Shown here: in pieces, positions 9,078 to 39,680 of the stretch
How positions within the stretch are numbered: position 1 is the stretch's first letter
How the letters are laid out: each line of letters begins with the position of its first letter
Source: an uncultured Actinomycetes bacterium
GTDB lineage: Bacteria > Actinomycetota > Actinomycetes > Mycobacteriales > Mycobacteriaceae
Assembly: GCA_903862565.1 (NCBI GenBank)
Contig: CAIOYU010000196.1
Span: 1-39,680, forward strand
DNA: 39,680 nucleotides
Direction of reading: 5' to 3'
The notes under the pieces: generated by a model
What the model saw: only the letters and a program-made list of their open reading frames with translations
What the model was told of the DNA's origin: nothing
The model's database searches: none
Program-made: the position numbers and the translations under genes

Positions 9078-9861
9078 CGTCGCTGCCGCTGCCGTGCGCC
9101 CGCCGGCGCGCTGCGTCGTGGGCGTTCTGCTCTGCGCGAAACATGCCCCCACCTGCTAAAAGGCGACGTCAGGGGTGTCTCGTTGACTGACGGCACCCCG
9201 GTTCGCCGGTGACGTAGCTAACACAGCAACGGCCGTCAAAGAAGTACGTTATCGAACGTTAATGGGGTTTCGGTGGGTCCCAGATCCGACTTCTGGCTCT
9301 TTTATCAGGGAAACTATAAGTGGCAATAATAATCTTAGGAAAAATTCCGCAATGGATTTGCTGGACAATTCTATTGGCGCGTTTAAGGACAACTAATAAT
9401 TGTGTCCTGCGAATTGATGGGGACTGTTCCGCCGGCATGATCCTGTGCGCCGGCTGTCCGGCCGATATGGTTGCCTGTCGGTCTCGTGTTTGGCAGAAGT
9501 ACCTGTTCAAAGGGATTTTTGCCACCTCCATTTGCCTTAGCAGTTGTTCGCTGGGACGACCGGGCCGGCACCGGTACCCACATCGGTTCGGCGGTCTCGC
9601 GACCCGTCCCGGGGCGGGTATTCCGGTGTCGTCGGGCCTGAAGTTCAGGCGCATTGTGTTTAAGAAAAAGACGTTTGCTGGAGTGATTAATGGGCTAATT
9701 CGGCCCGCGACACGCCCAGCGAAGTCGCCACCGAGCGTCCCGACGGTGTTCACGGTGGGCCGAATCCGGGCTGTGGCGCCGGCATCAGGCCGATTTAATG
9801 GCCAGTTCACGATAGATTTCGGGATGTGACGCTGCTACCGGGATGGCCCGGATTCAGCGCC

Positions 9862-9879
9862 CTGAGACCTAGGTCTCAG
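9862..9879. promoter_or_regulatory. 18-bp perfect palindrome upstream of the PKS (candidate operator)
   Basis: CTGAGACCTAGGTCTCAG equals its own reverse complement. Confidence 0.6.
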
Positions 9880-9954
9880 CTAACAAAACCGGCCCCGCTC
9901 TGGCCTAAACGCAGAAGGCGCGATAACGTTCGCTCATGACGTTTTCCGACAAAG

Positions 9955-9984
9955 CGATTTTCCTCGCGTTAATGTCGAAAATCG
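9955..9984. promoter_or_regulatory. inverted repeat (8-bp arms, 14-nt spacer) next to a possible -10 (TAAGCT, 9988..9993) of the PKS gene
   Basis: CGATTTTC-ctcgcgttaatgtc-GAAAATCG read directly; the promoter call is tentative. Confidence 0.45.
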
Positions 9985-10108
9985 GCTAAGCTAAACCCCA
10001 ACGCTGGCAACTTCTCAGCGACGTCGACGCCACCAACGGTCCGTCCCGTGAAGTTCCTGCAGCGGGGACACACCCGCTGAGCATCTGACGAACGATGAAG
10101 GACGAGCT

Positions 10109-13100
10109 GTGAGTGAAGTGCGCGGTAAATCCCTGACGCCGATCGCGATTGTCGGCATGGCGTGCCGGCTGCCGGGCGGTATCGACTCCCCGCGGAAGCT
10201 GTGGGAAGCGCTGCTGCGCGGCGACGACCTCATCACCGAGGTGCCTGCCGACCGCTGGGATGTCGAGGAGTACTTCGACCCGCAGCGCGGCGTGCCCGGC
10301 CGTTCGATTTCCAAGTGGGGCGCCTTCCTCGACGATCCGATGGGCTTCGACGCCCCCTTCTTCGGACTCGACGACGCCAAGGCCGCGGCCATCGATCCCC
10401 AGCATCGCCTCCTCATGGAGACCTCATGGGAGGCCATCGAGCACGCCGGAATCGACCCGACCTCGCTGGCCGGCTCGTCGACCGGGGTGTATCTCGGGCT
10501 GTCGCACGATGACCACACCTCCCGCGCGTTGGATGCCGGCGCGTACGGGTACACCGAGACCGCGTACTGCATGGCCTCCGGGCGGGTCGCCTACGTCCTC
10601 AACGTCAACGGTCCCGCGTTGACCTTCGACACGGCCTGCTCCTCGGGTCTGCTCGCTGTCCACATGGCTGCCCGTGGCCTGCACTCCGGCGAGACCGACA
10701 TGGCCCTGGCCGGCGGCTGCATGGTGATGACGGAGCCTCGCAAGAACGCGTGGGCCTCAGCTCAGGGCATGTTGTCACCGACCGGGCGCTGCAAGGCGTT
10801 CGACGAGTCGGCCAACGGATTCGTCCGCTCCGAGGGCGCCGCCGTGCTGCTCCTGAAGCGACTGTCCGACGCCCAGCGCGACGGCGACAACATCCTCGCC
10901 GTCCTGCGCGGTACCGCTTCCAACTCCGATGGCCGTACCCGCAACATCGCCACCCCGTCGCTGGACGCGCAGGTCTCCGCCACCCGCGCCGCCCTCCTGG
11001 CATCGGACGTCGACCCGGACACGATCGGTGCGCTGGAGGCCCACGGCACCGGGACGCCCGTCGGCGACCCGATCGAATTCGGCAGCCTCGCAACGACGTA
11101 CGGCAAGACCGGCACGGTTCTGCTGGGGTCGGTCAAGTCCAACCTCGGCCACACCGAGGCGGCTGCGGGCGCGGTCGGCCTGATCAAGGCCGTCCTGGAA
11201 CTCCAGCACGGTGTCGTGCCGCCGATGGTGCACTTCAACCGTCTCCCCGACAAGCTCGCCAAGATCGAGACCGGCCTGACCGTGCCGCGGGAGGCCACCT
11301 CGTGGCCGGAGGGCCACGGCGACGTTCGCCGCATGGCGATCTGTTCCTACGGCATCTCGGGCACCAACGTGCACGCCATTCTCGAGCAGGCCCCGCAGGT
11401 CGAGGATGCCGACGCCACCGGTGAGCCGGTCGACGGCCCCATGGTCTTCGCACTGTCCTCGACCTCGGCCGACAGTCTCCGCAGCACCGCGGGTCAGCTG
11501 GCCGACTGGGTCGACGGCAACGACGTGCCGCTGGCCGACCTGGCCTACACGCTGGCCCGCCGTCGTGGCCGCCGCTCGGTCCGCACCGGGCTAATTGCCG
11601 AGAGCCGCTCCGATCTGGTCGGCGCCCTGCGCGCAGTGGCCGGCGGTGACGAGCCCTATCCGGCCGCCGTCGGACACGACGATCGCGGACCGGTGTGGGT
11701 GTTCTCCGGCCAGGGGTCGCAGTGGGCCGGTATGGGGGCCGAGCTACTGGCCTCCGAGCCCGCGTTCGCCGCAACGATCGCCGAACTGGAACCGCTGATC
11801 GCCGCCGAGTCCGGCTTCTCGATCACCGAGGCGCTGCTGGCGCCCGAGACGGTGACCGGCATCGACCGCATCCAGCCCAGCATCTTCGCCATGCAGGTCG
11901 CGATGGCCGCCACCATGAAGTCCCACGGGGTCGTCCCGGGCGCGGTCATCGGCCAGTCCCTCGGCGAGGTCGCCGCAGCGGTGGTCGCCGGGGCGTTGTC
12001 GCTCGTTGACGGTGTCAAGGTCATCTGCCGTCGCTCGGTGCTGTGCCGCGAGATCGCCGGCGGCGGCACCATGGCATCGGTTGAGATGCCCGCCGCGCAG
12101 GTCCGCGCCGAACTCGAGGCTCACGGCATCGAAGACGTGACCATCGCGGTCGTGGCGTCTCCGACGTCGACGGTCATCGGCGGCGCCGTCGAGACCGTCC
12201 GCCGCCTGGTCGCCGACTTCGAGCAGCGCGAGATCATGGCGCGCGAGATCGCCGTCGACGTCGCCTCGCACACCCCCCACGTCGAGCCGGTGCTCGCTGA
12301 GCTGGGCGCGCTGCTTCAGGACCTGACCCCGATGGCGCCGGAGGTGCCCTACTACTCGGCGACGCTGTTCGATTCGCGTGAGCAGCCGTACTGCGACGCC
12401 GAGTACTGGCTGGACAACCTGCGCTACACCGTGCGGTTCTCGGCTGCGGTCCAGACCGCGCTGGAGGATGGTTTCCGGGTGTTCGCCGAACTGTCGCCGC
12501 ACCCGGTGGTGGTCCGGGCGATCGACCAGATCGCCGCCACACTGGAAATGCCCGCCACCGCCATCGCCGGCATGCGCCGCGGCCAGGAGATGCCGCACGG
12601 ACTCCGCGGCCTGCTGGTCGACCTGTACGCCGCCGGTGCGGCCGTCGATCCGGCCGCGACGCTGCCCGAGGGCCAGCTGGTCGACGCACCGCTACCCGCC
12701 TGGACCCACCGCAAGCACGTCCTCGAGCTCCCGACCGCGGACCGGGGCGCGCACCTGGTCGCGGCCCATCCGCTGCTCGGTTCCCACGTGCGCCTGCTCG
12801 ACGAGCCCGAGCGGCACGTCTGGCGGGCCGAGGTCGGCACCGCCGCCCTGTCCTGGCTGGCCGATCATCAGGTTGAGAGCGTCTCGGCCATGCCGGCTGC
12901 GGCGTTCTGCGAGATGGCGCTGGCCGCCGCCCGGACCACGATCGGCGACATCGCCGAGGTGTGGGACGTGCGCTTCGAGCGGACACTGGAACTCGCGGAC
13001 GAGACGGCGGTCAACGCAACCGCGTCCGCGCAGGCTTCCGGATTGTTCGATTTCGTGGTCGAGACCGGCCAGGGCGGAGAGCGCGAGCGCCGCGCCAGTG

Positions 13101-16100
13101 CCGTGCTGCACGCCGTCGAGAACCCCGATGACGACCGGCCGGCCGGCTACGACACCGCTGCGTTGATCGCCGCGCTGCCCAAGCGCACCGACGGCGCCGA
13201 ACTGCGCAAGTGGTTCGAGGTGCGCGGCGAGGTGTTCGGGCCCGCGTTCTCGGCGCTGAGCGCGGTCAACACCGCCGACGGTGACAACACCATGGTGGCC
13301 GAGATCGCCCTGCCCTCGGCGATCCGTGACCAGCAGAATGCCTACGGGGTGCACCCGGCACTGCTGGAGGCGTGCTTCCAGTCAGTGGCCGCGCATCCAG
13401 GCGTCCAGATCCACGGCGGCCGCCTGCTGCCGCTCGGTGTCCGGCGGCTGCGTACGTACGGACCGGCCAACAAGGCGCGCTTCTGCGTGACGCGCGTGGT
13501 CAGCCAGCTCGACGGCTCCGCCGTTGAGGCCGACCTCCACCTGATCGACGAGCGTGGTGCGGTTCTGCTGGCCGTCGAGGGCCTGTCCATGGTCGCCGGC
13601 ACACCGGACAACGGCCGACTGCTCGACGAGCGTTTGCTGGGCATCCAGTGGAGCAAGAAGACGCTGCCCGCCCTCGGCGAGGACGTGAACCCGGGCACCT
13701 GGCTGCTGGTGAACACCACCGACTCGGCGGACCTGCTGACCTCCGAGCTGGCCGACGCCCTCAAGCTCAGCAACGCCGACGTCACGGTGATGTCGTGGCC
13801 GCGGAGTTCCGATCACGTGGCCAACGCCGCACGGATGACGACCTACATGGCGGAGAGCAGCTTCGGCAGCATCGTCGTGGTCTCCGCGCCGCGTAACGGC
13901 TGCCCGCCGGAGCAGATGGTGCACCGTGGCGCCGACCACGTGCGCCACCTGGTACGCATCGCGCGGGAACTGGCCGACGATTCCGCAGAGGCTCCGCGGC
14001 TCTATGTCGTGACGCGGAACGCCCAGACCGTCTGCCCCGATGACCGGCCGAACCTCGAGCAGGCCGGCCTGCGGGGGCTGCTCCGCTCCATCGGCGCCGA
14101 GCACCCCCACCTGCGTCCGACGCAGATCGACGTCGACGAGAACACCATCGGCAAGTCCATCGCCCACCAGCTTCTGCTCGGTTATGACGAGGACGAGACC
14201 GCCTTCCGCAACGACGAGTGGTACACCGCTCGCCTGACCCACGCCCCGCTGCAGGCCGGCGAGCGGTTCACCACCGTCGTCGAACACGATCGGGACGGCA
14301 TGCGCCTGGAGATCCGGACCCCCGGTGACCTGGGAACGCTGGAACTGACGTCCTTCGAGCGGGTCGCTCCGGGACCCGGCGAGGTGGAGATCGCCATCAC
14401 CGCGTCGAGCCTGAACTTCACCGACGTGCTGGTCGCCACCGGCCAGTACCCGGGCGATGCGGGCACCCCGCGGCTGGGCAGCGACTTCGCCGGTGTCGTC
14501 ACCGCCGTCGGTCAGGGAGTCAAGGCGCACCGCGTCGGCGACCATGTCGGCGGCATCTCGCCCAACGGTTGCTGGGGCACCTTCGTCACCTGCGACGCCG
14601 ACCTGGCCGTGGCGCTGCCGCGGGGTCTGCGCGACGACCAGGCCGCGGCTGTGACCACGGCGGTCGCCACCGCCTGGCACGGTCTGAACGACCTGGCCCG
14701 GATCAAGACCGGCGACAAGGTGCTGATCCACTCCGCAACCGGCGGCGTCGGTCAGGCCGCCATCGCGATCGCCCGTCGTGCAGGTGCCGAGATCTTCGCC
14801 ACCGCAGGCAGCGAGGAACGCCGGAACCTGCTGCGCAGCATGGGTATCGAGAACGTCTACGACTCGCGCAGCATCGCCTTCGCGGAGCAGATCCGTCGGG
14901 ACACCGACGGCTACGGCGTGGACATCGTGCTGAACTCGCTGACCGGTGCCGGCCAGAAGGCCGGTATGGAACTGCTGGCTTTCGGCGGACGCTTCGTCGA
15001 GATCGGCAAGACCGACTCCGGTGATGCCCAGACGCTCCCGTTCCGCCGCAACATGTCCTTCTACGGAGTGGACCTGGCGCTGATGTGCTCCACCCACCCC
15101 GACCAGGTCCGTGAGCTGCTCAACACCGTGTACCGGCTCACCGCCAAGGGTGTTCTGCCGCACCCGCAGGCGACGCACTACCCGCTGACCGAGGCTGCCG
15201 CCGCGATCCGCGCCATGAGCGCGGCCGAACACACCGGCAAGCTGATCCTCTCGGTGCCGCGGGTCGGCCACAGCACGGTCGTGGTTCCGCCGGAGCAGGC
15301 CCGCGTCTTCCGTCGCGACGGTTCCTACATCGTCACCGGTGGCCTTGGTGGGCTGGGCTTGTTCCTGGCTGCCAAGATGGCCGACGCCGGTGCGGGCCGG
15401 ATCGTGCTGAACTCCCGTTCGGCGCCGAAGCCGGCGGCGATGGCCGAGATCGAGCGGATGCGTGCCCAGGGCACCGAGGTCGAGGTCATCACCGGTGACA
15501 TCGCTCTCGCCGGAACCGTCGACAGGCTGGTGGCCGAGGCCACCGTGAGCGGCTTGCCGGTCCGTGGCGTGCTGCACGCAGCCGCGGTCGTCGAAGACGC
15601 GATCCTGACCAACATCAGCGGCGAACTGATCGAACGGGACTGGGCGCCAAAGGTTTACGGCGCATGGCATCTGCACCGGGCGACCGCGACGCAGCCGCTG
15701 GACTGGTTCTGCTCGTTCTCCTCGGCCGCTGCGCTGATCGGCTCGCCGGGTCAGGGTGCCTACGCCGCTGCCAACAGCTGGCTGGACGCCTTCACCCAGT
15801 GGCGCCGTTCGCAGGGGCTGCCGGCCAGCGCGGTCGCGTGGGCCGCGTGGGACGAGATCGGAGCGGGCAAGCACCTGGCGCAGTCGGGGACCACCGCGAT
15901 GATCAATCCGGAGGAGGGCGCCTACGCGTTCGAGGCGCTGCTGCGCCACAACCGGGCCTACGCCGGCTACTCGCCGGTGGCGGGTGCGCCGTGGCTCACC
16001 GATCTCGCTGCCCGCAGCCCCTTCGGCGGGGAGTTCGCCTCCAGCACCGACCATTCCGTGGAGACCAGCGGTTTGCGGGCCGAGTTACACTCGCTCCCGC

Positions 16101-16348
16101 GGGAGGAATGGTCGCCTCGGGTGCGGCGCCTGGTGACCGAACACCTGGCTCTGATCCTGCGGTCATCGGTCGATCCCGACCGGCCGATCATGGAATACGG
16201 CCTCGACTCCCTGGGGCACCTCGAGCTGCGTACGCGGCTGGAGAGCGAGACCGGCGTCCGGGTCCGGTCCACGGACATCACGACGGTCCGCGGCCTGGCC
16301 GATACCCTGTGCGAGTCGCTGGTGGGCACGCTGGCGGCAGCCCGCTGA
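10109..16348 (+). CDS. Mas/Pks5-like iterative type I polyketide synthase (KS-AT-DH-ER-KR-ACP)
   Basis: [14 protein letters not shown] and [20 protein letters not shown] plus VASH (methylmalonyl-type); [85 protein letters not shown]; 2079 aa. Confidence 0.97.
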
Positions 16349-16376
16349 GCCGGGCGCCGAACAGGAAGCGAGTTCA

Positions 16377-17810
16377 GTGGTCGCGTTAACGGCAATCCAG
16401 GACTGGGTGGGCGCGCCGGGCTCCGTGGTGTCATGGAGCCCGGCCCCCGCCTGCGCGGAAAAGGTCCGGCAGGCCACCGCCAGCGACGTCCCGCCGAGTT
16501 TTCAGCAGGAACAGCACATCCGGGCCTACCGGCAGCATGCGGCGGACGGGCTGGAGATGGCCCGGCTGATGATCCCGTCGTGGAAGATCGCCGGGCGGTG
16601 CGACCTGCGGGCGATGAGCTACGTGATCAACGCCTACCTGCGCCGCCATGACACTTACCACAGCTGGTTCGACTTCGACGAGGCCGACCGGGTGGTGCGC
16701 CATACGGTCAGTCCGGAAGACATCAAGCTGGTGCCAACCAGCCATGGGGAGATGAACTCGGCCAAGTGGCAGGCACAGGCCTTGGACGTGCCCGGCCCGC
16801 TGGACTGGGACTGCTTCCGGTTCGGCGTGATTCAGCGAGCCGACCACTTCACCTTCTATGCGAGCATCGACCACCTCCACGCCGATGCGATGTTCGTCGT
16901 GGCGCTGTTCGTCGAGATCCATTCGAACTATGCCGCCGTCGTCGAGGGCGGCGTTCCGGTCCGGCTTCCCGAGGCCGGCCGCTACGCCGACTACTGCATC
17001 CGGCAGCGTGACTACACCTCCGGTCTGACGCTGGAGTCGCCAGAGGTCGTCGAGTGGTTGGAGTACCTGCGCAAAAACGGCGGGACCCTACCGAAATTCC
17101 CGATGCCGCTGGGTGATCCGAACATCCCCTGCACGGGCGAGCTCAACAAGATCAGGCTGATGGACGTGCGCGAGAGCGACCGGTTCGAGGCCGTGTGCGC
17201 CTCGGCGGGGGCACGGTTCATCGGTGGGGCTTTCGCCTGCGCCGCGCTTGCCGAACGCGAACTCACCGGTATCGACACCTACAACGTCATCACGCCGACC
17301 ACCACGAGGCAGACCCAGGCGGAATTCGCCACCACTGGTTGGTTCACCGGCGTCGTGCCGATCTCCGTTCCGGTCGCCGGCAAGTCGTTCGCCGAAACCG
17401 CCAGGGCCTGCCAGCAGGCCTTCGACGCCGGCATGCATCTGGCGCAACTGCCGATCGAACGGGTGCTGGAGCTGGCGGCGCCATTGCCCGACATCCGCAA
17501 GGCCGGCCCCGGTGTGCCGATGCTCTCGTATTTCGACACCAGCCTGCCTCCCTTGGATCCCGTCGTGATGGGCAAGTGGCGCGAGCAGGAGGGCACGCTG
17601 TACACCGGTGTCGGCGCGGCCAGTCAGATGGGGATGTGGGTGAACCGCGGCTCCGACGGAACGGTCATCTCCGTCGGCTACCCGGACAACCCGGTCGCCC
17701 GCGAATCGGCGACCCAGTACGTTGAGCTGATGAAAATGTTCTACCTGCGGGCCGCCGACGGCCGCGCCGACGCGTTGTCCTCGCCGCGGATTCCGCGGGC
17801 GACGGTCTGA
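16377..17810 (+). CDS. polyketide-associated acyltransferase, PapA3-like
   Basis: Starts LTAIQDWVGAPGSVVSW; QQEQHIRAYRQHAADGLEMARLMI; YVINAYLRRHDTYHSWF; HxxxD motif in FYASIDHLHADAMFV; GARFIGGAFACAALAERELTG. Confidence 0.92.
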   Translation: MVALTAIQDWVGAPGSVVSWSPAPACAEKVRQATASDVPPSFQQEQHIRAYRQHAADGLEMARLMIPSWKIAGRCDLRAMSYVINAYLRRHDTYHSWFDFDEADRVVRHTVSPEDIKLVPTSHGEMNSAKWQAQALDVPGPLDWDCFRFGVIQRADHFTFYASIDHLHADAMFVVALFVEIHSNYAAVVEGGVPVRLPEAGRYADYCIRQRDYTSGLTLESPEVVEWLEYLRKNGGTLPKFPMPLGDPNIPCTGELNKIRLMDVRESDRFEAVCASAGARFIGGAFACAALAERELTGIDTYNVITPTTTRQTQAEFATTGWFTGVVPISVPVAGKSFAETARACQQAFDAGMHLAQLPIERVLELAAPLPDIRKAGPGVPMLSYFDTSLPPLDPVVMGKWREQEGTLYTGVGAASQMGMWVNRGSDGTVISVGYPDNPVARESATQYVELMKMFYLRAADGRADALSSPRIPRATV

Positions 17811-17826
17811 CCGACGGGCTGCGGCG

Positions 17827-19287
17827 GTGGAATCTCTGGAGTCGAAATCTCTGGAACGGGTGAGCGACCTCGACCATCGGGGTGCCGGGGAGCAGGACGA
17901 TCTTCTCTGCTACGCAGACCAGGCGCTGTTCCTGTCGTTGCGTGCCACCGGGCAGGAGTCGGTTGCCCAATTCACTTGGATCTATGAACATCCCGTCGAT
18001 TTCGATCGGCTGAAACGGTTTCATCAGAACCTGGGCTACGGGCTTCTGGGTCGTCGGATCGAGCGTTCGAGCCTTCCCTTCGGACGTCATCGATGGGTCG
18101 CCTCACTGGGTCCGTCCGCGCCACTGGACATCAGCAGCACCCCCCGCCCGCGATCGGAGTTCACCGACTGGCTCGACGAACGTGCGCAGGTGTCGGCGGA
18201 TCCGGAATTCGGTCCGGGCTGGCATCTGAGCGCGGCCATGTTCGACGACGGATCGACCGCGATCACGATCGTCGCCTCGCACTGCCTCGTCGACGGAATG
18301 GGCCTTTTGGAGACGTTGATCAATGCGATCAACGACACCCCCCGTGACTTGGGTCTGTCGGCGCCGCATGCCCGCACTCGGCGGCAGGCATTGCGCGCCG
18401 ATATCCGCGAGACGATTCGAAGCGTCCCCGACACCGCCAAAGCGCTCGGGGTGGGGGCGCGCCTCGGTGTTCGTCGCTGGCGTGAGTCCCGGCGCGACAA
18501 GGTCTCTCGCGACGGCGGCGTGTCCCGGGATGCCACCGCTGCACCGACACGACCGGTGACGTCCGACCTGGCGTCGGGGGCATCGGCGTCCCGTGAGGTG
18601 ATCGCCCCGGCAGTGATCGCCGTCGTCGATTGCCAGGCGTGGGACAGTCGCGCCGAGGCGCTTGGCGGTAACAGCCATTCGCTGTTCGCCGGGTTCGCCG
18701 CGAAACTCGCCCAACACGTCGGGCGCACCCGGGCCTCCGACGGCGCCGTGACGTTGATGATTCCGGTGAACGAGCGAGAGCCCGGTGACACCCGGGCGAA
18801 CGCGGTGACGATCGGATATGCCAGCCTGGACCCCGCGTCGGTGACCACCGATCTGACCGAGGCACGTGCGCAGATCCGCCAAGTCCTGACCTCGGTTCGG
18901 GAAGTCCCCGACGAGACGCTGCGGACACTGCCGTTGATTCCCTTCGTGCCGAAGCGGGCTGTCGTTGGAACCGCGAGTCTGGCAATGGGTTTGGGCGCTG
19001 ACCTGCCGGTCTCCGCCTCGAATCTGGGCGACGTGGACGCCGCGGTCCTCCGTGCCGACGGAACCGATGCCGAAGGCTTCATCATCCGCGGGGTCGACGG
19101 CCGCGTCACCCAGGAGTTGCTCGAGCGGCGCCACGGCTATCTCACCGTGCTCTGCAACCGGTCGGCCGGCAAGGTCTTTCTCTCGGTGATCGGTTACCGG
19201 CCCGGGGGAGAGAACACGAAGGCGGCACTGCGCGCACTTGTCGTAGAGACCCTCGCGGAGTTCGGCCTGTCCGGAACCGTCGAGTAG
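17827..19287 (+). CDS. HxxxDG condensation/WS-DGAT-like acyltransferase, copy 1
   Basis: IVASHCLVDGMGLLE (HxxxDG); RFHQNLGYGLLGRRIERSSLPFGRHRWV; C-terminal ENTKAALRALVVETLAEFGLSGTVE. GTG start uncertain; 17860 is an alternative. Confidence 0.82.
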   Translation: MESLESKSLERVSDLDHRGAGEQDDLLCYADQALFLSLRATGQESVAQFTWIYEHPVDFDRLKRFHQNLGYGLLGRRIERSSLPFGRHRWVASLGPSAPLDISSTPRPRSEFTDWLDERAQVSADPEFGPGWHLSAAMFDDGSTAITIVASHCLVDGMGLLETLINAINDTPRDLGLSAPHARTRRQALRADIRETIRSVPDTAKALGVGARLGVRRWRESRRDKVSRDGGVSRDATAAPTRPVTSDLASGASASREVIAPAVIAVVDCQAWDSRAEALGGNSHSLFAGFAAKLAQHVGRTRASDGAVTLMIPVNEREPGDTRANAVTIGYASLDPASVTTDLTEARAQIRQVLTSVREVPDETLRTLPLIPFVPKRAVVGTASLAMGLGADLPVSASNLGDVDAAVLRADGTDAEGFIIRGVDGRVTQELLERRHGYLTVLCNRSAGKVFLSVIGYRPGGENTKAALRALVVETLAEFGLSGTVE

Positions 19288-19313
19288 CGGCTTGCACCAC
19301 TCACATCGCAGAC

Positions 19314-20678
19314 GTGGCAATGGAGGCTGACCGGGTGACCCCACAGGACGAGCATCGGCTGACGTACCTCGACCAGACCGCGTTGGAACTCGCCCGGGCG
19401 ACCGGTCGGGGCCAGTTGATGCAGTGCGTGTGGGTCTACGAGCATCCGCTCGACTACCAAGGACTCGAACGGTTCCACCGCAACTGTGCCGAGTCGATCG
19501 GCAACCGGCTCATCGAACGCTCGCCACTGCCGTTCGGGCGACACCGGTGGGTGCGCGCCGGTGGGCCTCCGCCTCCGATCCGCATCGCTGAGAAGCCAAG
19601 GCCCCGAGAGGAATTGCTGGCCTGGGCCGACGAGCTCGCCAACCTGCCCATCGACTCGGTGAACGGACCTGCCTGGAACCTGGTGGTTCAGCCGCTCGCC
19701 GACGGATCCACGGCGGTCAGCATGATCGCCTCACATCAGATCTTCGACGGCGTCGGCGCCATTTTGGCCATCTACGAAGGGGTCATCGGCAGCATCCGCG
19801 ATACCCGGTACGAGGTGTCGGGTTCGCGTAGCAAGGGCAGGGCCCTTCGCGCCGACGCCCGTCAGGCACTGCGTGACCTGCCGGAAACCCTGCGCACCGC
19901 CAGGAAAGCCGCCACGATGTACCGCGCCAAGCGCGAGGAGTTCGCGGCCGCGCGCACCCCACACCTCTCCGGCGAGGATTCCCGTCGGGTCGTCGTGCCG
20001 GCGATCGCGATCTATGTCGGTATTCCGGAGTGGGATGCCAAGGCGCAATCCCTTGGCGGGAACAGCTATTCGCTGCTGGCCGGATTTGCGGCCAAACTCG
20101 GGGAGCGCCTGGGCCGCCGTCGCGCCGACGGCGACGTCAGCCTGATCATCGCCATCAACCTCCGGGAGAACTTGGCAGACGACCGGGCTCTGGCCATGGC
20201 GTTCGCCAATGCGACGGTCGATCCGACCACTGTCACCGACGATCTGACGGCGACCCGTGCGGCGGTTCGGGAAGCACGGGAGAAGGCCAAGAACGAGCCG
20301 GACCCGACCATCGAGTTGCTCTCCATCGCCCCCTGGCTTCCACAGAGCGCGATCAAAGGGCTTGCCGAGGTGATGTTCGACTACTCAGAGAGCCTGCCCG
20401 TGTCGTGTTCGAATCTGGGTGACCTGCCGCCGGAAGTCGCCCGGATCGACGGAACCGATGCGGAATACGTCTTCATCCGCGCCATGGACACCAACGTCAC
20501 GTTGGGGGAGTTGAAGCGGTCCAAGGGCCAACTCGTCCTGGTGTCGGGACGTATCAATGGCACGGTGTCGATCTCGGTCGAGGCCTACCAACTCGGGGCG
20601 GAGAACACCAAGGAACGGCTGCGCGACATTGCCGAACAGACCCTCGCCGAGTTCGGGCTCAGCGCCGTCATCGACTGA
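19314..20678 (+). CDS. HxxxDG condensation/WS-DGAT-like acyltransferase, copy 2
   Basis: MIASHQIFDGVGAIL (HxxxDG); RFHRNCAESIGNRLIERSPLPFGRHRWV; ENTKERLRDIAEQTLAEFGLSAVID; clear paralogue of the preceding gene. The start could be ATG 19320. Confidence 0.82.
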   Translation: MAMEADRVTPQDEHRLTYLDQTALELARATGRGQLMQCVWVYEHPLDYQGLERFHRNCAESIGNRLIERSPLPFGRHRWVRAGGPPPPIRIAEKPRPREELLAWADELANLPIDSVNGPAWNLVVQPLADGSTAVSMIASHQIFDGVGAILAIYEGVIGSIRDTRYEVSGSRSKGRALRADARQALRDLPETLRTARKAATMYRAKREEFAAARTPHLSGEDSRRVVVPAIAIYVGIPEWDAKAQSLGGNSYSLLAGFAAKLGERLGRRRADGDVSLIIAINLRENLADDRALAMAFANATVDPTTVTDDLTATRAAVREAREKAKNEPDPTIELLSIAPWLPQSAIKGLAEVMFDYSESLPVSCSNLGDLPPEVARIDGTDAEYVFIRAMDTNVTLGELKRSKGQLVLVSGRINGTVSISVEAYQLGAENTKERLRDIAEQTLAEFGLSAVID

Positions 20679-21431
20679 TCAGAGTCGGCTGAAACCGACT
20701 GCGACCAAGACGAACCCGGCGATGCCGAGCAGGATGGCGTAGTCCTGGCGACGGCGGGCGAGTACCCACGTCCGCAGCCCCTCCAGGAATCGGATGGTGC
20801 GATCCTTGGCCACCACGTAGCTGAAGATCGGAACCAGCAGAACGGCGTTCGCGATGGTCAGGAACGTGAACAGTGCCGTGACCTGAAGCTTGTCCGACAT
20901 TCCGGAACTGGCGATCAGCAGCAGCAGGGCCATGTAGTCAACGGAGGGCAGTGCGTTGCCGATTCCGAGGACGATGGCCAGGACCGGGGAACTGCCCTGC
21001 ACCAGTTTCGCCGCCCAACCGGGCAGGTTGCTGGTGATCCGTTCGACACGGGCGATTCCCGCGTGCTGCGGCGTTCCCGGCAGCGGTTCGCCGTCCGGTC
21101 CGGCGGCCTGGTCGCCGTCTGTTCCGGCACCCTCCGGTGCGCGGCGCTTGCCGAAGGAGATGTTGCTCCCCAGCACCGCTGCGGCGATGAGTGCTACTGC
21201 CCCGACGCCGATCTGTACCTTTGCGCTGCTGGAATCCCCGCTCAGGAAAGAGCCCCGGTGAATGAGGGAGAGAATGAGCAACCCTGCAGATCCGGCCACC
21301 AGGAAACTGGTGATGAGGAATGCCACCAACTGCCGGATTGGGTGCGGCCGGATCAGCAGCAGGCCGATGATGGCAAGGCGGTTCGGTTCCAGGTTCAACG
21401 CAAGAGCGAGAATCAGAACCGTCGTCCACAT
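20679..21431 (-). CDS. Gap/Sap-like (GPL-addressing protein family) integral membrane protein
   Basis: MWTTVLILALALNLEPNRLAIIGLLLIRPHPIRQLVAFLITSFLVAGSAGLL and repeated TM segments; adjacent to mmpL. ATG at 21431 preferred over the ORF start at 21515, which would overlap mmpL. Confidence 0.82.
   Translation of the reverse strand: MWTTVLILALALNLEPNRLAIIGLLLIRPHPIRQLVAFLITSFLVAGSAGLLILSLIHRGSFLSGDSSSAKVQIGVGAVALIAAAVLGSNISFGKRRAPEGAGTDGDQAAGPDGEPLPGTPQHAGIARVERITSNLPGWAAKLVQGSSPVLAIVLGIGNALPSVDYMALLLLIASSGMSDKLQVTALFTFLTIANAVLLVPIFSYVVAKDRTIRFLEGLRTWVLARRRQDYAILLGIAGFVLVAVGFSRL
20683..20700. terminator. possible hairpin at the convergent gene junction
   Basis: AGTCGG-ctgaaa-CCGACT perfect 6-bp stem just after the TGATCA double stop; no T-tract. 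Confidence 0.3.
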
Positions 21432-21463
21432 GATTGTCGAGACTACCGTCGACCGGGAATCGT

Positions 21464-24400
21464 CTAGGAATTGTGCCGTCTGTTGGCGGGGAGGGCCTTC
21501 CACTTCGACGGCCACCAGTTCGCCTTGCCGACCAGAACCGCGGTAGCAGGCACGGTGATGGTGCGAACCAGGAAGGTGTCCAAGAGAATCCCGACGCCGA
21601 TGATGAAGCCCATCTGTACGAGCGTGGTGATGCTGGAGAACTGCAGACCTGCCATCGACGCGGCGAAAATCAGACCCGCAGCGGTGATGACGCCACCGGT
21701 CTGGGTGATGGTCCTGATGACGCCCAGGCGGATTCCCAGAGGTGGCGATTCGTCGCGGATTCGGGAGATCAGCAGCAGGTTGTAGTCGGCGCCGACCGCG
21801 ACGAGGATGATGAAGGTCAACCCCGGCACGCTCCAGTGCAATTCCTGGTGCAGTCCGTACTGGAACGTCAGGACTCCCAGGCCGAGCGCAGACAGGTACG
21901 AAACAACCACCGAGACAATCAGATACAGCGGGGCCACCAGTGCCCGCAGCAGGACGATCAGAATGCTCAGCACGACGATGATCGTCAGCGTGACGATCAA
22001 TCTCAGATCGCGGTTGTAGTAATCCCTGGTGTCGCGCAACGTGACTGAGAATCCGCTCATGGCGATGTCGGCATCACTCAAGGTGGTGTTGGGCTGGGCG
22101 CTGCGCGCGGCCGCCAGGATGGCATTGACTTGATCCATCGCTTCCGAACTGAACGGATTCAGCTTGCTCTGGACCAGGTATCGGGCGGTGTGCCCGTCCG
22201 GCGAGAAGAATATCGCCGCTGCCTTCTTGAATTCCTCCCCGGTCAGGATCTGCGGGGGCACGTAGAAACCCGCCATCGCCGGCGTCGTCGCTTCGCGTTT
22301 GATGCTGAGCAGGAATTGCGACGCCAAGGTGAGCCCGTCTCGCAGTTGTTTGGTCTGGCCGACGACGAGGTTTACCCCGTCGGCCATCTGCCGACTTGCC
22401 GCCGCGAGTTTAGCGACGCCCTGATCCACCAGGGTCAGCTGATCCTGCAGATCCGCAGGGCTGTTGATACCGGAGGACCGCAGTGCCTCGGTGAGGTTGT
22501 TCAGCGCACCCGCGGCGTCGTTGCCGCTCGAGCCGGGAATGAGGGTGCCGGGAACCTGGCCGCCCGGAAGCTGGCCCGCCGGAAGCTGAGCGCCCGGAAG
22601 CTGGCCCGCCGGAACTGGAAGGTGGTTGGCCGGGCTCGGGACGGTGCTGGTGGGTGCGGGAACTTGGCTGGTGGGCAAGGGGTTTGGCGTGGTGGTGGTG
22701 GTTATCGGAGTGGGTCGTTCCTTGGCCGGCCCGCCGTAGATCGGTCGCTCACTGGCCGTTGCGGGGCTCGGCTCGGTGACGGGTCCGGGAAGCCCGGTGC
22801 CGGTGTGCTGATCGGCGGGTCCGGGGAGTTGGTTGCCGGGGCCCACGATCCGGTCTCCGGCGAAAGCCTGGAGTTGGCGGGCGAGGCCGGAGATCTGGTC
22901 GAGAAGGACGCTCGCGTCGGCGCTCTGATGCAGCTGAGCGCGGTTGGTGACGCAGACGGGGTCGGCATCGCAGTTCGGATTGTTGTCCAGAGCGTCGAGG
23001 ACGGGCTGAACCGACTCGCTGAACGACTGGACGGCGTCGGTGGCATTGGTGCCGAGCACGTTTCCGAGTTGGTGGACGGCGTCGAGCAGCTTGTTGGTGA
23101 CGTCGATCTCCTGGATCGCCCTGCTCCCGCCGAGGTGGTTCTGACCTGCGGGCCCGGCGGTCTGTCCGGGGTTCTGCACCGGAGGCATCGAGGAGATCGC
23201 GATCAGCAGTCCGCGGACGGTGGCGATGCCCTGGCTTACCTGTCCCTGGAGGGAGTCGAGCAGATCGGCGATCTGGGTGGCGCCGTTGGCCAGCAAGTTC
23301 AGTTCGGAGTCGTAGGAGCTGATCACCGAGGAGGCCAAGCCGAGCTTGCTCCCCACCTCGCCCACCTGGAACGAGATGCGGGTCTGCTCCAGGGATTCCC
23401 CGGTAGGCCGGGTGATGCCGCGCACGATGTCGATATCGGGCACCTGGCTGATCCGGAACGCCATCTGTTCCATGTCGGCGAGTGCCTTGGCGGTGCGCAG
23501 ATCGTGCGGCGAGTGCACCAGAATGTATTGCGGCAGGCTCGTGTTCAGCGGGAAGTGCTGGGTGATCGCGTCGTAGCCGCGGATGCTCTCCGTTTCGGGA
23601 GGCAGTGCCTTGCGATCGTCGTAGTTGAATTTCGCCAGGCTGACCGAGCCGGCCAGGATCGCCAGGATCACCAGGCTGGCGATCAGGTGCCCGGCGGGTT
23701 TACGCGCGATCCTGATGCCCGAGCGTTTCCAGAACCGGCTGGTCAGGTCGCGCCGGGGCATCGCCCATCCCCGTCGCCCGACCAGGACCAGCAGGGAGGG
23801 CAGGAAGGTCAGGGCGCCGGCACAACCGACGCAGATCGCGACGGCCAGCGCCACACCCACAGTGGAGAACACCGTCAACTTGGTGAAGATCATCCCGAGG
23901 AACGTGACCGCCACAGTGGCGGCGGACGCGGTGATGACCTTGCCGACCGAGTTCAGTGCGCTGGGTATCGCCTGGTCGGCGGTCTGGCCGAGTCGGATGA
24001 AGTCGTGGTACCTGCTGATGAGGAATACCGCGTAGTCGGTTCCGGCTCCCGCCATCATCGCCGTGAGCAGCACGATGGTCTGGGTCGAGATCTCCAGGCC
24101 CAACACCCCGAGGCCGGCGATCACACCCTGCGCGGCGACCAGCGACACCCCGATGGTGATCAGCGGGAGCATGATCGTCAACGGATTGCGATAGACCATC
24201 AGCAGGATGAACAGAAGTGCGGTGACGGTGGCCACCTCGACGGTCACCCGGTCGCGCTCGCCGATGTCCTGGACGTTGTCCAATGTCGCGGCCGGCCCCG
24301 TGAGATAGGCGGTCACCGTCGTGCCCGCCACCGTCTTGCGGACGATGTCCATCAGTTTCTTGGTCGTCGCCGTCGCACTCGGAGAGCCCAGAGTGTCCCG

Positions 24401-24856
24401 GAGGCTCACCGGCAGCAGCCAGGCCTTCCCGTCCTTGCTGCCCAGGACCTCCTTCAGCGCCGGGACAGAGATGAAGTCCTGAACCGCCGAGACGCCCTTG
24501 CTGTCCGCCTTCAGCTTGGTGACGAGGTCGCGGTACACCCGCTCATCGGCCGATGACAGTCCGTTGTCATTGATCAGAACGACCAGGAGGATGTTTTCGG
24601 AGCCGCCCTCCTTGTAGGCGTCCATCATTTCCATGCTCGCCACCACTGACGGAGCGTTGGCCGGAAGAATATTGGACGGCGCTCGCTGGGCGAGGACGGG
24701 AAGGGAGGGGAAGGAGGCGGTGAGTCCGGCTCCCACAGCGATCCAGAGGGCGATTACCAGCCATGGCCAACGGACGACAACGCGACCGATCGCGCCGAAA
24801 ACGCCACCTCCGCGTGCAGCCGTCTGCGTCTCCGGCGGGAGGCTCTCTGAGGCCAC
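21464..24856 (-). CDS. MmpL family RND lipid transporter
   Basis: [19 protein letters not shown]; two sets of RND TM bundles ([42 protein letters not shown]); large Pro-rich second extracytoplasmic loop. Confidence 0.95.
   Translation of the reverse strand: [1130 protein letters not shown]
22548..22616. repeat. 15/30-bp tandem repeats in mmpL encoding a QLPxG-rich segment
   Basis: cccggaagctggccc/gccggaagctgagcg/cccggaagctggccc/gccgga; the protein reads [22 protein letters not shown]. Confidence 0.8.
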
Positions 24857-25156: not shown

Positions 25157-28100
25157 GTGATCGAGCCCAATCCGACGGTGCCCAACCCGGGCCACACCGG
25201 CTACCCCAGGCAGTCTGGCGGCTCTCCCGATTTCCCCGCCCTGGAACGTGAGGTCCTTGCCTACTGGGCGGACGACGACACCTTCCGGGCCAGCGTCGAA
25301 CAGCGCGAAGCGGCGCCGGAATATGTCTTCTACGACGGACCGCCGTTCGCTAATGGCCTGCCGCACTACGGGCACCTGCTGACCGGTTACGTCAAGGACA
25401 TCGTTCCCCGCTACCGGACCATGCGCGGCTACAAGGTCGAACGCCGGTTCGGCTGGGACACCCACGGACTGCCGGCCGAACTCGAGGTTCAGCGCCAACT
25501 CGGCATCACCGACAAGGCGCAGATCGAGGAGATGGGCATCGAGACGTTCAACGACGCCTGCCGGGACTCGGTGCTCAAATACACCAACGAGTGGCGCGCC
25601 TACGTCACCCGCCAGGCCCGCTGGGTCGACTTCGACAACGACTACAAGACGCTCGACCCGTCGTTCATGGAATCGGTCATCTGGGCGTTCAAACAGTTGT
25701 GGGACAAGGGCCTTGCCTATGAGGGCGTACGGGTGCTGCCGTACTGCTGGAACGACGAGACCCCACTGTCCGCCCACGAACTGCGGATGGACGACGACGT
25801 CTACCAGAGCCGCCAGGACCCGGCCGTCACCGTGGGATTCCGGGTCGACGCCCCGGGCTCCGAACTTGACGGCGCCTACCTGCTGGTCTGGACGACGACG
25901 CCGTGGACCTTGCCGTCGAACCAGGCCGTCGCGGTGAATCCCGAGGTGACATACGTCGTCGTCGCCCACGACGGTCGCCGGGTCGTTCTCGCGCAGGCGC
26001 GCCTCGCGGCCTACGCCCGGGAACTGGGGGAAGAGCCAGAGGTCATCGGCTCCTACACCGGGGAACAACTGCTGGGTCTGCGTTATCTGCCGCCGTTTCC
26101 GTACTTCACCAACTCCGAGAACGCTTTTCAGGTTCTGCGTGGTGATTTCGTCACGACCGAGGACGGCACCGGGATCGTGCACATGGCACCGGCCTACGGC
26201 GAGGACGACAAGGCGACCACCGACACCGTCGGCATCGTGCCGGTCACCCCGGTGGACGCCAAGGGCCGGTTCGACGCCTCCGTTCCCGATTACCAGGGCC
26301 TGCAGGTCTTCGACGCCAACCCGCAGATCATCCGCGACCTGAAGAACGGCACCGGTTCGGTGGCGGTCAACGCACCCGTGCTGATCCGCCACGAGACCTA
26401 CGACCACCCCTATCCGCACTGCTGGCGTTGCCGCAATCCGCTGATCTACCGCGCGGTGTCGTCGTGGTTCGTCAAGGTCACCGAGTTCCGGGACCGGATG
26501 GTCGAACTGAACCAGGAGATCACCTGGTATCCCGAGCACGTCAAGGACGGCCAGTTCGGCAAGTGGCTGTCGAATGCGCGGGACTGGTCCATCTCACGAA
26601 ACCGCTACTGGGGCACGCCGATTCCGGTATGGGTTTCCGATGACCCCGCCTACCCGCGCATCGACGTGTACGGCAGCCTCGACGAACTCGAGCGCGACTT
26701 CGGCGTGCGTCCGGACAACCTGCACCGGCCCTACATCGACGAGCTGACCCGGCCCAACCCCGACGACCCGACCGGTCACGCGACCATGCGCCGTATCGAG
26801 GACGTCTTCGACGTGTGGTTCGACTCCGGGTCGATGCCCTACGGGCAGGTGCACTACCCATTCGAGAACACCGACTGGTTCCTCGGTACCGATTCCGTCG
26901 ACCCTGACAAGCAGGTCGACGGTGCCGATTCCGTCGACCCTGACAAGCAGGTCGACGGTGCCGATTCCGTCGACCCTGACAAGCAGGTCGACGCCCACTT
27001 CCCGGGCGACTTCATCGTCGAATACATCGGACAGACCCGCGGCTGGTTCTACACACTGCACGTGCTGGCGACCGCACTGTTCGACCGGCCGGCCTTCAAA
27101 ACCTGTGTGGCCCATGGCATCGTCCTGGGCAACGACGGCCAGAAGATGAGCAAGTCGCTGCGCAACTACCCCGACGTCAACGAGGTGTTCGACCGCGACG
27201 GCTCCGATGCCATGCGCTGGTTCCTGATGGCCTCGCCGATCCTGCGGGGCGGGAACCTGGTCGTCACCGAGCAGGGGATCCGGGAGGGTGTTCGGCAGGT
27301 GCTCCTGCCGCTGTGGAACGCCTACAGCTTCCTGGCGCTCTATGCGCCGACAGTCGGCACGTGGCGCACCGATTCGCCGCATGTGCTGGACCGCTACATC
27401 CTGGCCAAGCTCGCCGCCCTGCGCGACGACCTGACTGCGGCGATGGATGTGTGCGACATCTCGGGGGCGTGCGAGCAACTGCGCCAGTTCACCGAGGCCC
27501 TCACCAATTGGTATGTGCGGCGGTCCCGTTCGCGCTTCTGGCATGAGGACTCCGACGCGATCGACACCTTGCACACCGTGCTGGAGGTCACCGCCCGGCT
27601 CGCGGCCCCACTGCTGCCGATGGCATGCGAGGTGATCTGGCGGGGCATCACGGGGGAGCGGTCGGTTCATCTGACGGACTGGCCGCAGGCCGGTGTGGTG
27701 CCCGCGGACCCCGAGTTGGTCGCCGCCATGGACCAGGTGCGCGAGGTTTGCTCGGTGGCGTCGTCGCTGCGTAAGGCCAAGAAGCTTCGGGTGCGCCTTC
27801 CGCTGCCGAAAATCACCGTCGCAGTGGATGATCCGAGTCAGTTGCGACCGTTCGCCGAACTGATCGCCGATGAGCTCAACGTCAAGGCCGTCGAACTCAC
27901 CGATGACATCGCCGCACATGGACGTTTCGAGTTGTCGGTCAACGCACGGGCTGCCGGCCCACGGCTGGGCAAGGCGGTCCAGGACGCGATCAAAGCGGTC
28001 AAGACCGGCCAGGGTGTGCTGAACCCCGAAGGCACCCTGAGCGCCGGCGCGGTGGTGCTGAACCCCGACGAGTACAGCTCACGGTTGGTGGCAGCCGACC

Positions 28101-37545: not shown

Positions 37546-38682
37546 TCAGTGCTGTGCGTCCGTGATCTCAGCCTGCGGACGCTCGAGGTCGTAGGCGTCG
37601 TACACGAACCCCAGGTCGCGGCGGATGCGTTCGGGATCGAGGTTGAATTTCTCGGGCGAATGCTGGTGCTTGCTCTTGTAGGTGCGCTGCTTCTCGTGCT
37701 GAGCATGCACCTCGTCGAGGAAGGCCTGCGGCGGTTCGATCTCGATGAAGTCGAGAATCCGCTTCATCGTGGGTTCGAGGTTGTGCAGGAGGTCGGTGTA
37801 GCGGACCACGCAGAGGTTCTTCTCGGGGATCGCCCCGGAGGTCTGGGCCTCGTAGAAGGTGCGCAGCAGGTCCCCGGAGGCTTGGTAGAGGTTTTCGACC
37901 CAGCGTTGCTGGTCGGCGGGGCTGGTTTTGTTGAAGGCGTCGTAGCCGTTCTCCAGGACCCCGGCGATCAGGGACATGCCGGAGGGGATCACCTCGACGG
38001 GGTCGCGGATGATGTAGACCAGTTTCGCGTCGGGGTAGCGCTGCAGGACTTCCTCGATGCGGAAGGTCAGCATCGAGGTCTTGGCCAGGACCCGCTTGGC
38101 CTTCTTGTAGACCAGGTTCCGCCGCCAGATCGCCTCGTGATAGCCGAAGAAACGGTCCTTCTCGGCCTCGGAGACCCCGGAGATGCCCATCTCCTGCTTG
38201 GACAAGGCGCTGCCCCAGTGGTCCTGCCAGGCCAGGAAGTAGGCCCAGGCGAACGGCCCGTCCAGGGTCCGCAGGAACCAGGCCACGTCATCGGTTTCGA
38301 TGCCGCGCAGGTTGGTGTCGTGGACATCGGAGGGGTGGTAGCGGGCGGGGTTGAGCCGGTCGATCCGCGGGACGATCCGCCCGAGTAGCTTGCGGGCGGT
38401 GATCGCCGGGAACATCATTTCCCACAACTCGAAGGCCGCCATGTCCCCGGCATTGAGAAGCAGCCGGTGCAGGAACGTGGTCCCGCTGCGGGGGTTGCCC
38501 ACGATGAAGATCGGCCGATCGATCGGCTGGGTCTTCACTGCGGGGAACAGAACGTTGTCCGCGGCCATGGTGGCCGCGGAGATCCCCTCACGCACCTGTA
38601 GCGCGGCAAACGTCCCGATCGGGCGCAGCCGTGTGCCGAACGTGGAGCTGATCGTGCGGTACAGGTTCAGATACCGGCTCAC
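37546..38682 (-). CDS. sulfotransferase family protein (PAPS-dependent type)
   Basis: PIFIVGNPRSGTTFLHRLLLNAGDMAAFELWEMMFP (5'-PSB loop) and YIIRDPVEVIPSGMSLI (3'-PB); GTG start at 38682 overlaps the upstream stop. Confidence 0.9.
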   Translation of the reverse strand: MSRYLNLYRTISSTFGTRLRPIGTFAALQVREGISAATMAADNVLFPAVKTQPIDRPIFIVGNPRSGTTFLHRLLLNAGDMAAFELWEMMFPAITARKLLGRIVPRIDRLNPARYHPSDVHDTNLRGIETDDVAWFLRTLDGPFAWAYFLAWQDHWGSALSKQEMGISGVSEAEKDRFFGYHEAIWRRNLVYKKAKRVLAKTSMLTFRIEEVLQRYPDAKLVYIIRDPVEVIPSGMSLIAGVLENGYDAFNKTSPADQQRWVENLYQASGDLLRTFYEAQTSGAIPEKNLCVVRYTDLLHNLEPTMKRILDFIEIEPPQAFLDEVHAQHEKQRTYKSKHQHSPEKFNLDPERIRRDLGFVYDAYDLERPQAEITDAQH

Positions 38683-39680
38683 CGGCTGGCCTCTGCACCG
38701 ACACCGGCTGTGGCGGCTGGGGCACCGACGCCGTCTTCCCAGACCGCGGTGGCCGCGACGATGGTGAACCCCGCCGCCGCGCTGCCCAGCACGATCTTGT
38801 CCCCGTGTGCGACCCCACCGTGGCGCATCCGGTGATCCAGGGCCAACGCCCACGCGGTGCTGGCGGTGTTGCCGTAGAGGGCATGGGTGTGGATCGCGGC
38901 ATCGGGCTTGGCCCCGAGCTGGCCGAAGATCTTGTCCAACACCGCCTGGCTGGGCTGGTGGAACGCATAGTGGTCGACCTCATCGGCATGCCAGCCGGCA
39001 TGGTCGAGCATCTTCTTGACCTCGGGCACCACATGCACCGACAGGGCGAACAACTCCTTGGACTGGGAGGTGAAATGCCCATCGACCGGTGCCCGGCACA
39101 GATCCCAATGCTCCGAGCGGGTCTTGTGGATCAACTCCACCAACCGCGCCCCCCCGGTGGCCAACGCCTCCCGGGTCACCAGCAACGCCGCCGCGGCGTT
39201 GCCCAACGTCAACCCCGCCACGTTGACCATCACGTCCTCGAGGTTCTGCATGTCGTAATTGATCCGGTCCCGGGTGATCTCCCCCGAACAGATCAACGCG
39301 GTCTGGATGTCCTCATGCAACGCGAAATACCCGGCCGCGACGTGCAAGGCCTCCAACAACCCCGCACACGCACACGTCACGTCCAACGCCACCAACGGCC
39401 TGGCCCCCAACCGGCCCGCGACCTCGGTCGCGGTGGCCGGCTCGAACGCATCCCGGGCCACACCGCCGTAAATCAGCAGGTCCACATCCGTGGCCGCCAC
39501 ACCATTGTCGGCCAGACACGCCGCCGCCGCCTGCGCCGCGAACTCACCCGGAGACACCAACGTCTCACCCTCGAGATACCGCATCTTGGTATTACACCGA
39601 TCGAACACCCACCGAATGATTTGCTCGACAGGCTCCCAATCATTTGCCGAACCACGGAAAGCATCCCGCGCCCACGACAA
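38679..39680 (-). CDS. 3-oxoacyl-ACP synthase III (KAS-III/FabH-like), 5' end outside window
   Basis: LDVTCACAGLLEALHVA (catalytic Cys), YAFHQPSQAVLDKIF (His), THALYGNTASTAWALAL (Asn), GDKIVLGSAAAGFTIVAA; the upstream ~40 N-terminal residues are probably past 39680. Confidence 0.9.
   Translation of the reverse strand: MSWARDAFRGSANDWEPVEQIIRWVFDRCNTKMRYLEGETLVSPGEFAAQAAAACLADNGVAATDVDLLIYGGVARDAFEPATATEVAGRLGARPLVALDVTCACAGLLEALHVAAGYFALHEDIQTALICSGEITRDRINYDMQNLEDVMVNVAGLTLGNAAAALLVTREALATGGARLVELIHKTRSEHWDLCRAPVDGHFTSQSKELFALSVHVVPEVKKMLDHAGWHADEVDHYAFHQPSQAVLDKIFGQLGAKPDAAIHTHALYGNTASTAWALALDHRMRHGGVAHGDKIVLGSAAAGFTIVAATAVWEDGVGAPAATAGVGAEASR

Follow-up and report, generated by a model that had tools for sequence, protein, structure and literature searches.

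The 39,680-nucleotide stretch of mycobacterial DNA analysed here (the window) bears, between lipL and ileS, a compact group of six genes that is probably a variant of the Pks5/LOS type of locus. It would direct the synthesis of a triacylated, methyl-branched acyltrehalose exported by an MmpL-Gap pair, with FadD provided in trans. The PKS-PapA-AT1-AT2 cassette type is known; the variant of the window is devoid of a glycosyltransferase (GT) gene and has a divergent KS domain.

Gene content of the lipL-ileS interval

The six ORFs that a preliminary description had reported between lipL and ileS were found in place, on the same strands and with the expected domains. The first (10109..16348, plus strand) encodes a Mas/Pks5-type iterative reducing polyketide synthase (PKS), as indicated by KS-AT-DH-ER-KR-ACP domain matches and by trees. 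It is followed on the same strand by genes for a PapA acyltransferase with the motif HLHAD (16377..17810; domain match, nearest solved chain and tree) and for two tandem HxxxDG acyltransferases, AT1 (17827..19287; motif HCLVDG, WS/DGAT-BAHD-condensation fold; motif, predicted structure and tree) and its paralogue AT2 (19314..20678; motif HQIFDG; motif and tree). These four genes are separated by 16-28 bp and are convergent with two genes on the minus strand, which encode a Gap/Sap-type small membrane protein (SfLAP, PF11139 match; 20679..21431) and an MmpL RND-type lipid exporter of the MmpL8/10 side (21464..24856; PF03176 and tree). The Gap ORF is open to 21515. As its aligned homologues begin with MWTTVL, the start was placed at the Met at 21431, and the in-frame extension to 21515 is probably untranslated. 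In the MmpL protein, one periplasmic loop contains a low-complexity insert rich in Pro and Gln, about 110 aa long, with a 15-bp tandem repeat at 22547-22618.

The slot is bordered by mutA-mutB-meaB-lipL to its left and by ileS to its right. That a methylmalonyl-CoA mutase adjoins a PKS using methylmalonyl may be due to chance. As the preliminary description had also observed, the lipL-ileS interval of the window holds neither a GT nor a FadD gene; genes for Chp1, PapA2 and Stf0 were likewise not found in this interval. An Rfam search gave no match.

The AT-rich intergenic region 5' of the PKS gene (9078..10108) has the lowest GC content in the window (57.6% vs 67.1%) and holds nearly all of its lowest-GC 300-bp segments. 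The intergenic region upstream of the PKS has the same length, 1,020-1,040 bp, in eight related slots. Judged from the GC profile and this length, the region is likely the PKS promoter. In M. smegmatis, MSMEG_4727 belongs to an island with a similar AT-rich, Lsr2-type promoter setting and is silenced by Lsr2 (PMC8125055); by analogy, the region of the window is a possible Lsr2 target.

The slot in other mycobacteria

Among 80 Mycobacterium genomes, the meaB-ileS distance ranges from about 3.5 kb to 114 kb, compared with 17.4 kb in the window. About 20 of the 80 have an "empty" slot of about 3.5-5 kb (that of G039 holds lipL, one DUF gene and a gene for a 197-aa protein), many others have 40-114 kb, and eight have a 17-kb slot. 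With few exceptions, the latter have the meaB and ileS genes nearest to those of the window. The slot is a genus-wide glycolipid hotspot, and with such wide variation the large region of M. tuberculosis, previously taken as the reference state, does not fit that role.

The PKS-PapA-AT1-AT2 order is shared by many Mycobacterium genomes, often in this slot and in other cases at another site. In the 17-kb clade (G295, G241, G004, G136, G322, G009, G098 and G172), lipL is followed by PKS-PapA-AT1-AT2, convergent, as in the window, with Gap and then GT and, in seven of the eight, DUF247; S197 and ileS come next in the forward direction. The slot length is nearly identical to that of the window and the 1.03-kb promoter gap is shared, but GT and S197 (with DUF247 in seven of eight) occupy the place of MmpL, and the slot carries neither MmpL nor FadD. 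The lineage of the window itself is represented by seven sampled relatives, each grouping with it in one or more of the trees for PapA, the PKS C-terminus and MmpL; they have the same convergent layout where contigs allow. G025 and G209 share one order, PKS-PapA-AT1-AT2 convergent with Gap, GT and MmpL, followed by ileS. The slot of G194 has the same gene set as the window and that of G210 has it with Gap inverted. In G032 and G127, MmpL adjoins Gap, and a GT is probably absent. GT is therefore kept in the slots of G025, G209 and the 17-kb clade.

In the PKS C-terminal and PapA trees, the window falls in a 7-row clade with G025, G032, G111, G194, G209 and G210 (support 99). A genus-wide MmpL search was run on 248 genomes with the N-terminal 640 aa as query. 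In the MmpL tree, the window lies in an 8-row clade (support 100). This subclade joins further MmpLs encoded in the slot on the MmpL8/10 side and is distinct both from the cassette MmpLs of genomes such as G354 and G042 and from the MmpL of the G237 LOS region. Since slot position, promoter gap and these three trees agree on one lineage, a horizontal insertion of the whole cassette was rejected. The slot comparison revealed a hotspot with a recurring core, and the cassette is lineage-typical and vertically inherited, with one recurrently lost GT, and not the product of a recent exchange. The "reduction" seen in the window is the loss of GT and two other slot genes from this inherited locus. 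The simplest history would start from an ancestral set with GT and MmpL, with repeated loss of GT in this lineage and loss of MmpL in the 17-kb clade. The slot combines a stable PKS-PapA-AT1-AT2 core with exchangeable GT, FadD and exporter modules.

In slow growers (M. marinum, M. kansasii and, as a remnant, M. tuberculosis), the pks5-papA4-mmpL12 LOS region occupies the same slot as the cassette of the window. The labels given to the loci of relatives (SL-1-like, PAT-like, Mas, LOS) come from synteny. One PKS of the LOS-type genome G237 groups near the window PKS (91/92), but the slot of G237 spans about 71 kb, with two PKSs and sugar genes, and its MmpL belongs to another clade. The LOS island of M. 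smegmatis, MSMEG_4727-4737, also has a Mas-like PKS of the same family. We take 5bp1 and 5bp4 to be solved parts of this PKS, MSMEG_4727. In the KS-AT tree, the MSMEG_4727 crystal sequence 5bp1 is found with the loci of the same cassette located elsewhere than in the slot, apart from the window PKS. Loci of this group share the PKS-PapA-AT-AT arrangement, but the island lies at a different chromosomal site, 5bp1-type loci include FadD and more genes, and the window PKS is in another subclade. The island makes LOS in M. smegmatis (PMC8125055; PMC11139207).

The polyketide synthase and the acyltransferases

The AT domain of the window PKS has the methylmalonyl-type motif VASH. In the KS-AT tree (45 rows), the enzyme groups with the slot PKSs and Mas, on the Pks5 side, as the Mas/Pks5-like label of the preliminary description implied, and is split from the SL/PAT clade with 100/100 support. 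It has the longest end branch of this tree (0.61). This length is mainly due to the KS domain (10109-11560), which has diverged much further than the remaining domains: identities with G025 are 65% for KS, 78% for AT, 70% for DH, 78% for ER, 82% for KR and 78% for ACP, whereas the KS of G025 is 86-87% identical to those of G295 and G009. As AT to ACP are ordinary, non-orthology of the PKS as a whole was rejected. In the KS tree, the KSs of eight other lineage members form a 100/100 clade that does not include the window KS, and constraining it into this clade was not rejected at the 5% level (AU p=0.064). Together these data suggest, but do not prove, that the KS was replaced from another PKS. 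Fast change specific to the KS is a possible alternative reading, and an assembly chimera at about 11.5 kb, in the KS/linker region, a further one. No plasmid donor of the KS was found, the best match being 48%.

Two motifs of the window PKS are also altered. The GHSxG motif of the AT domain reads GQSxG (residue 616), which is unique among the 30 PKSs covering the motif, and the DH motif HPALLDACFQ has Glu instead of Asp at residue 1087, a change otherwise found only in the SL-1-type PKS of G073. In PKS DH domains, this Asp is the catalytic residue. The two substitutions could reflect an altered or weakened PKS activity.

The PapA protein has a condensation fold, and its nearest solved chain is M. 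tuberculosis PapA2 (6AEF, E 2e-160). It had been described as PapA3-like: the PapA assignment stands, but the subtype is indistinguishable here from PapA1/2/4, PapA2 being the only member of the PapA1/2/3/4 group yielded by the PDB. Its predicted role is to transfer the product of the PKS from the ACP onto the sugar core. Both AT1 and AT2 contain the HxxxDG motif. The predicted structure of AT1 (mean pLDDT 89), the one of the pair used for fold comparison, is two-lobed and matches the condensation, BAHD and WS/DGAT folds. Pfam WS_DGAT_cat gives weak matches, obtained for 21 of 40 AT relatives, and the AT1/AT2 pair falls below the Pfam cut-offs; the acyltransferase label is based on fold and motif. 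AT1 (27 rows, support 99) and AT2 form separate clades, each genus-wide, and judged from this tree they are an ancient, conserved pair of paralogues. At E<=1e-60, 310 of 396 genomes contain relatives, and a scan of genome contigs yielded only 5 distant ones. Our literature search found no paper on the AT1/AT2 pair and none naming MSMEG_4729.

Proposed product and competing explanations

In the proposed pathway, a FadD encoded elsewhere would activate a fatty acid, and the PKS would elongate it with methylmalonyl-CoA to a multimethyl-branched acid in a few cycles of full or partial reduction. PapA would transfer this acid from the ACP to trehalose or to a different sugar core. Two more acyl groups would be attached by AT1 and AT2, each specific for a position or an acyl-CoA of its own, and MmpL and Gap would export the triacylated product. 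The core sugar, the acyl lengths and the donors of AT1 and AT2 are not readable from sequence; ancestry and parts come from the locus itself, and the acyl chemistry, the acceptor and the sequence of the steps are modelled on MAS, LOS, SL-1 and PAT. Acylation of a pre-existing core, as put forward in the preliminary description, was judged a fair inference. Since the window is devoid of the GT kept in sister genomes, glycosylation of its product is probably lower than in classical LOS, except if a GT is supplied in trans.

The source assembly is a draft of 781 contigs (96.6% complete, 5.6% contaminated) and probably a MAG, so that a GT could lie in an unassembled part. A second ileS fragment (L120, G000:C86) is 83-84% identical to that of the window, and an AT2 homologue (L119, G000:C748; 67%) lies beside a GSDH/PKD-domain protein. 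Both probably derive from contamination by another mycobacterium that has a similar cassette, and given this ileS fragment and the contamination figure, contaminant genes may be mixed in. The best FadD of the genome (57%) is on C243, a FadD-Gap-MmpL contig; a PAT/SL-type PKS on C17 marks a separate locus, and several other AT relatives are present. A TPP-side PKS beside a GPL-type NRPS is found on C285/C78, separate from the window, where no PKS adjoins a GPL locus with FadD.

According to one alternative, the window holds a normal LOS locus whose GTs act in trans, giving a glycosylated acyltrehalose and making the missing GT unimportant. LOS genes can be scattered, and one GT is retained within the cassette of the sisters G025 and G209, but the only homologue of the cassette GT in the same genome is 52% identical and lies on the GPL-type NRPS contig C78, where it is probably a GPL glycosyltransferase; we consider this alternative unlikely. 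The orthology to one characterised locus that would have contradicted the preliminary description is partial: PKS, PapA and the two ATs are members of the LOS-type cassette family, with a Pks5-side Mas-like PKS next to PapA according to the KS-AT, PKS C-terminal and PapA trees, but the gene set differs, without GT or FadD in the locus, and the MmpL is on the MmpL8/10 side instead of being of MmpL12 type.

A more far-reaching proposal is that a KS acquired from another Mas-like PKS and the DH Asp-to-Glu change would give a hydroxyl-bearing methyl-branched chain of altered length. Joined with two other acyls to trehalose that carries no further sugar, and exported through a pump of the MmpL8/10 type, it would form a new class of triacyltrehalose from a LOS locus. 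It appears distinctly doubtful.

The exporter could also point to a system like those of SL-1 (pks2-papA1-mmpL8-sap) or DAT/PAT (pks3/4-papA3-mmpL10), which share with the window an MmpL8/10-side MmpL, Sap/Gap, a Mas-like PKS and PapA. MmpL12 is the LOS exporter, while the trehaloses exported by MmpL8 and MmpL10 are partly acylated and are completed outside (PMC12507525); here too, the product would be finished outside the cytoplasm. The window PKS scores 3269, above the NCBIfam Pks2 equivalog cut-off of 2400, but the KS-AT tree keeps it out of the Pks2 clade. Moreover, there is no Chp-type gene, Stf0 or second PapA, and the SL/PAT-like loci examined lack AT1/AT2, which makes this explanation quite improbable. 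Finally, a decaying locus, with relaxed selection on the PKS and no product, is very improbable: the PKS differs from 25 other PKSs at 24 sites that are invariant among them, the second-highest count of the 26, besides its GQS and DH substitutions, but all six frames are open and the KS Cys-His-His, ER, KR and ACP motifs are intact.

For the Pks5/LOS-type variant favoured here, the naturally occurring GT-plus and GT-minus sisters offer a direct test of the contribution of the GT and of which AT sets which acyl.

Two further features were observed to the right of the cassette. The ileS gene contains an in-frame 36-bp tandem repeat (26884-26993, 3.1 copies, 98% match), corresponding to a 12-residue repeat in IleS. 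Most other Mycobacterium IleS alignments break at about query residues 575-612, and the repeat looks like an insertion absent from most of the genus. A Sulfotransfer_3 family protein is encoded on the minus strand (37546-38853), downstream of dnaE1 and at a distance of about 12 kb from the cassette.
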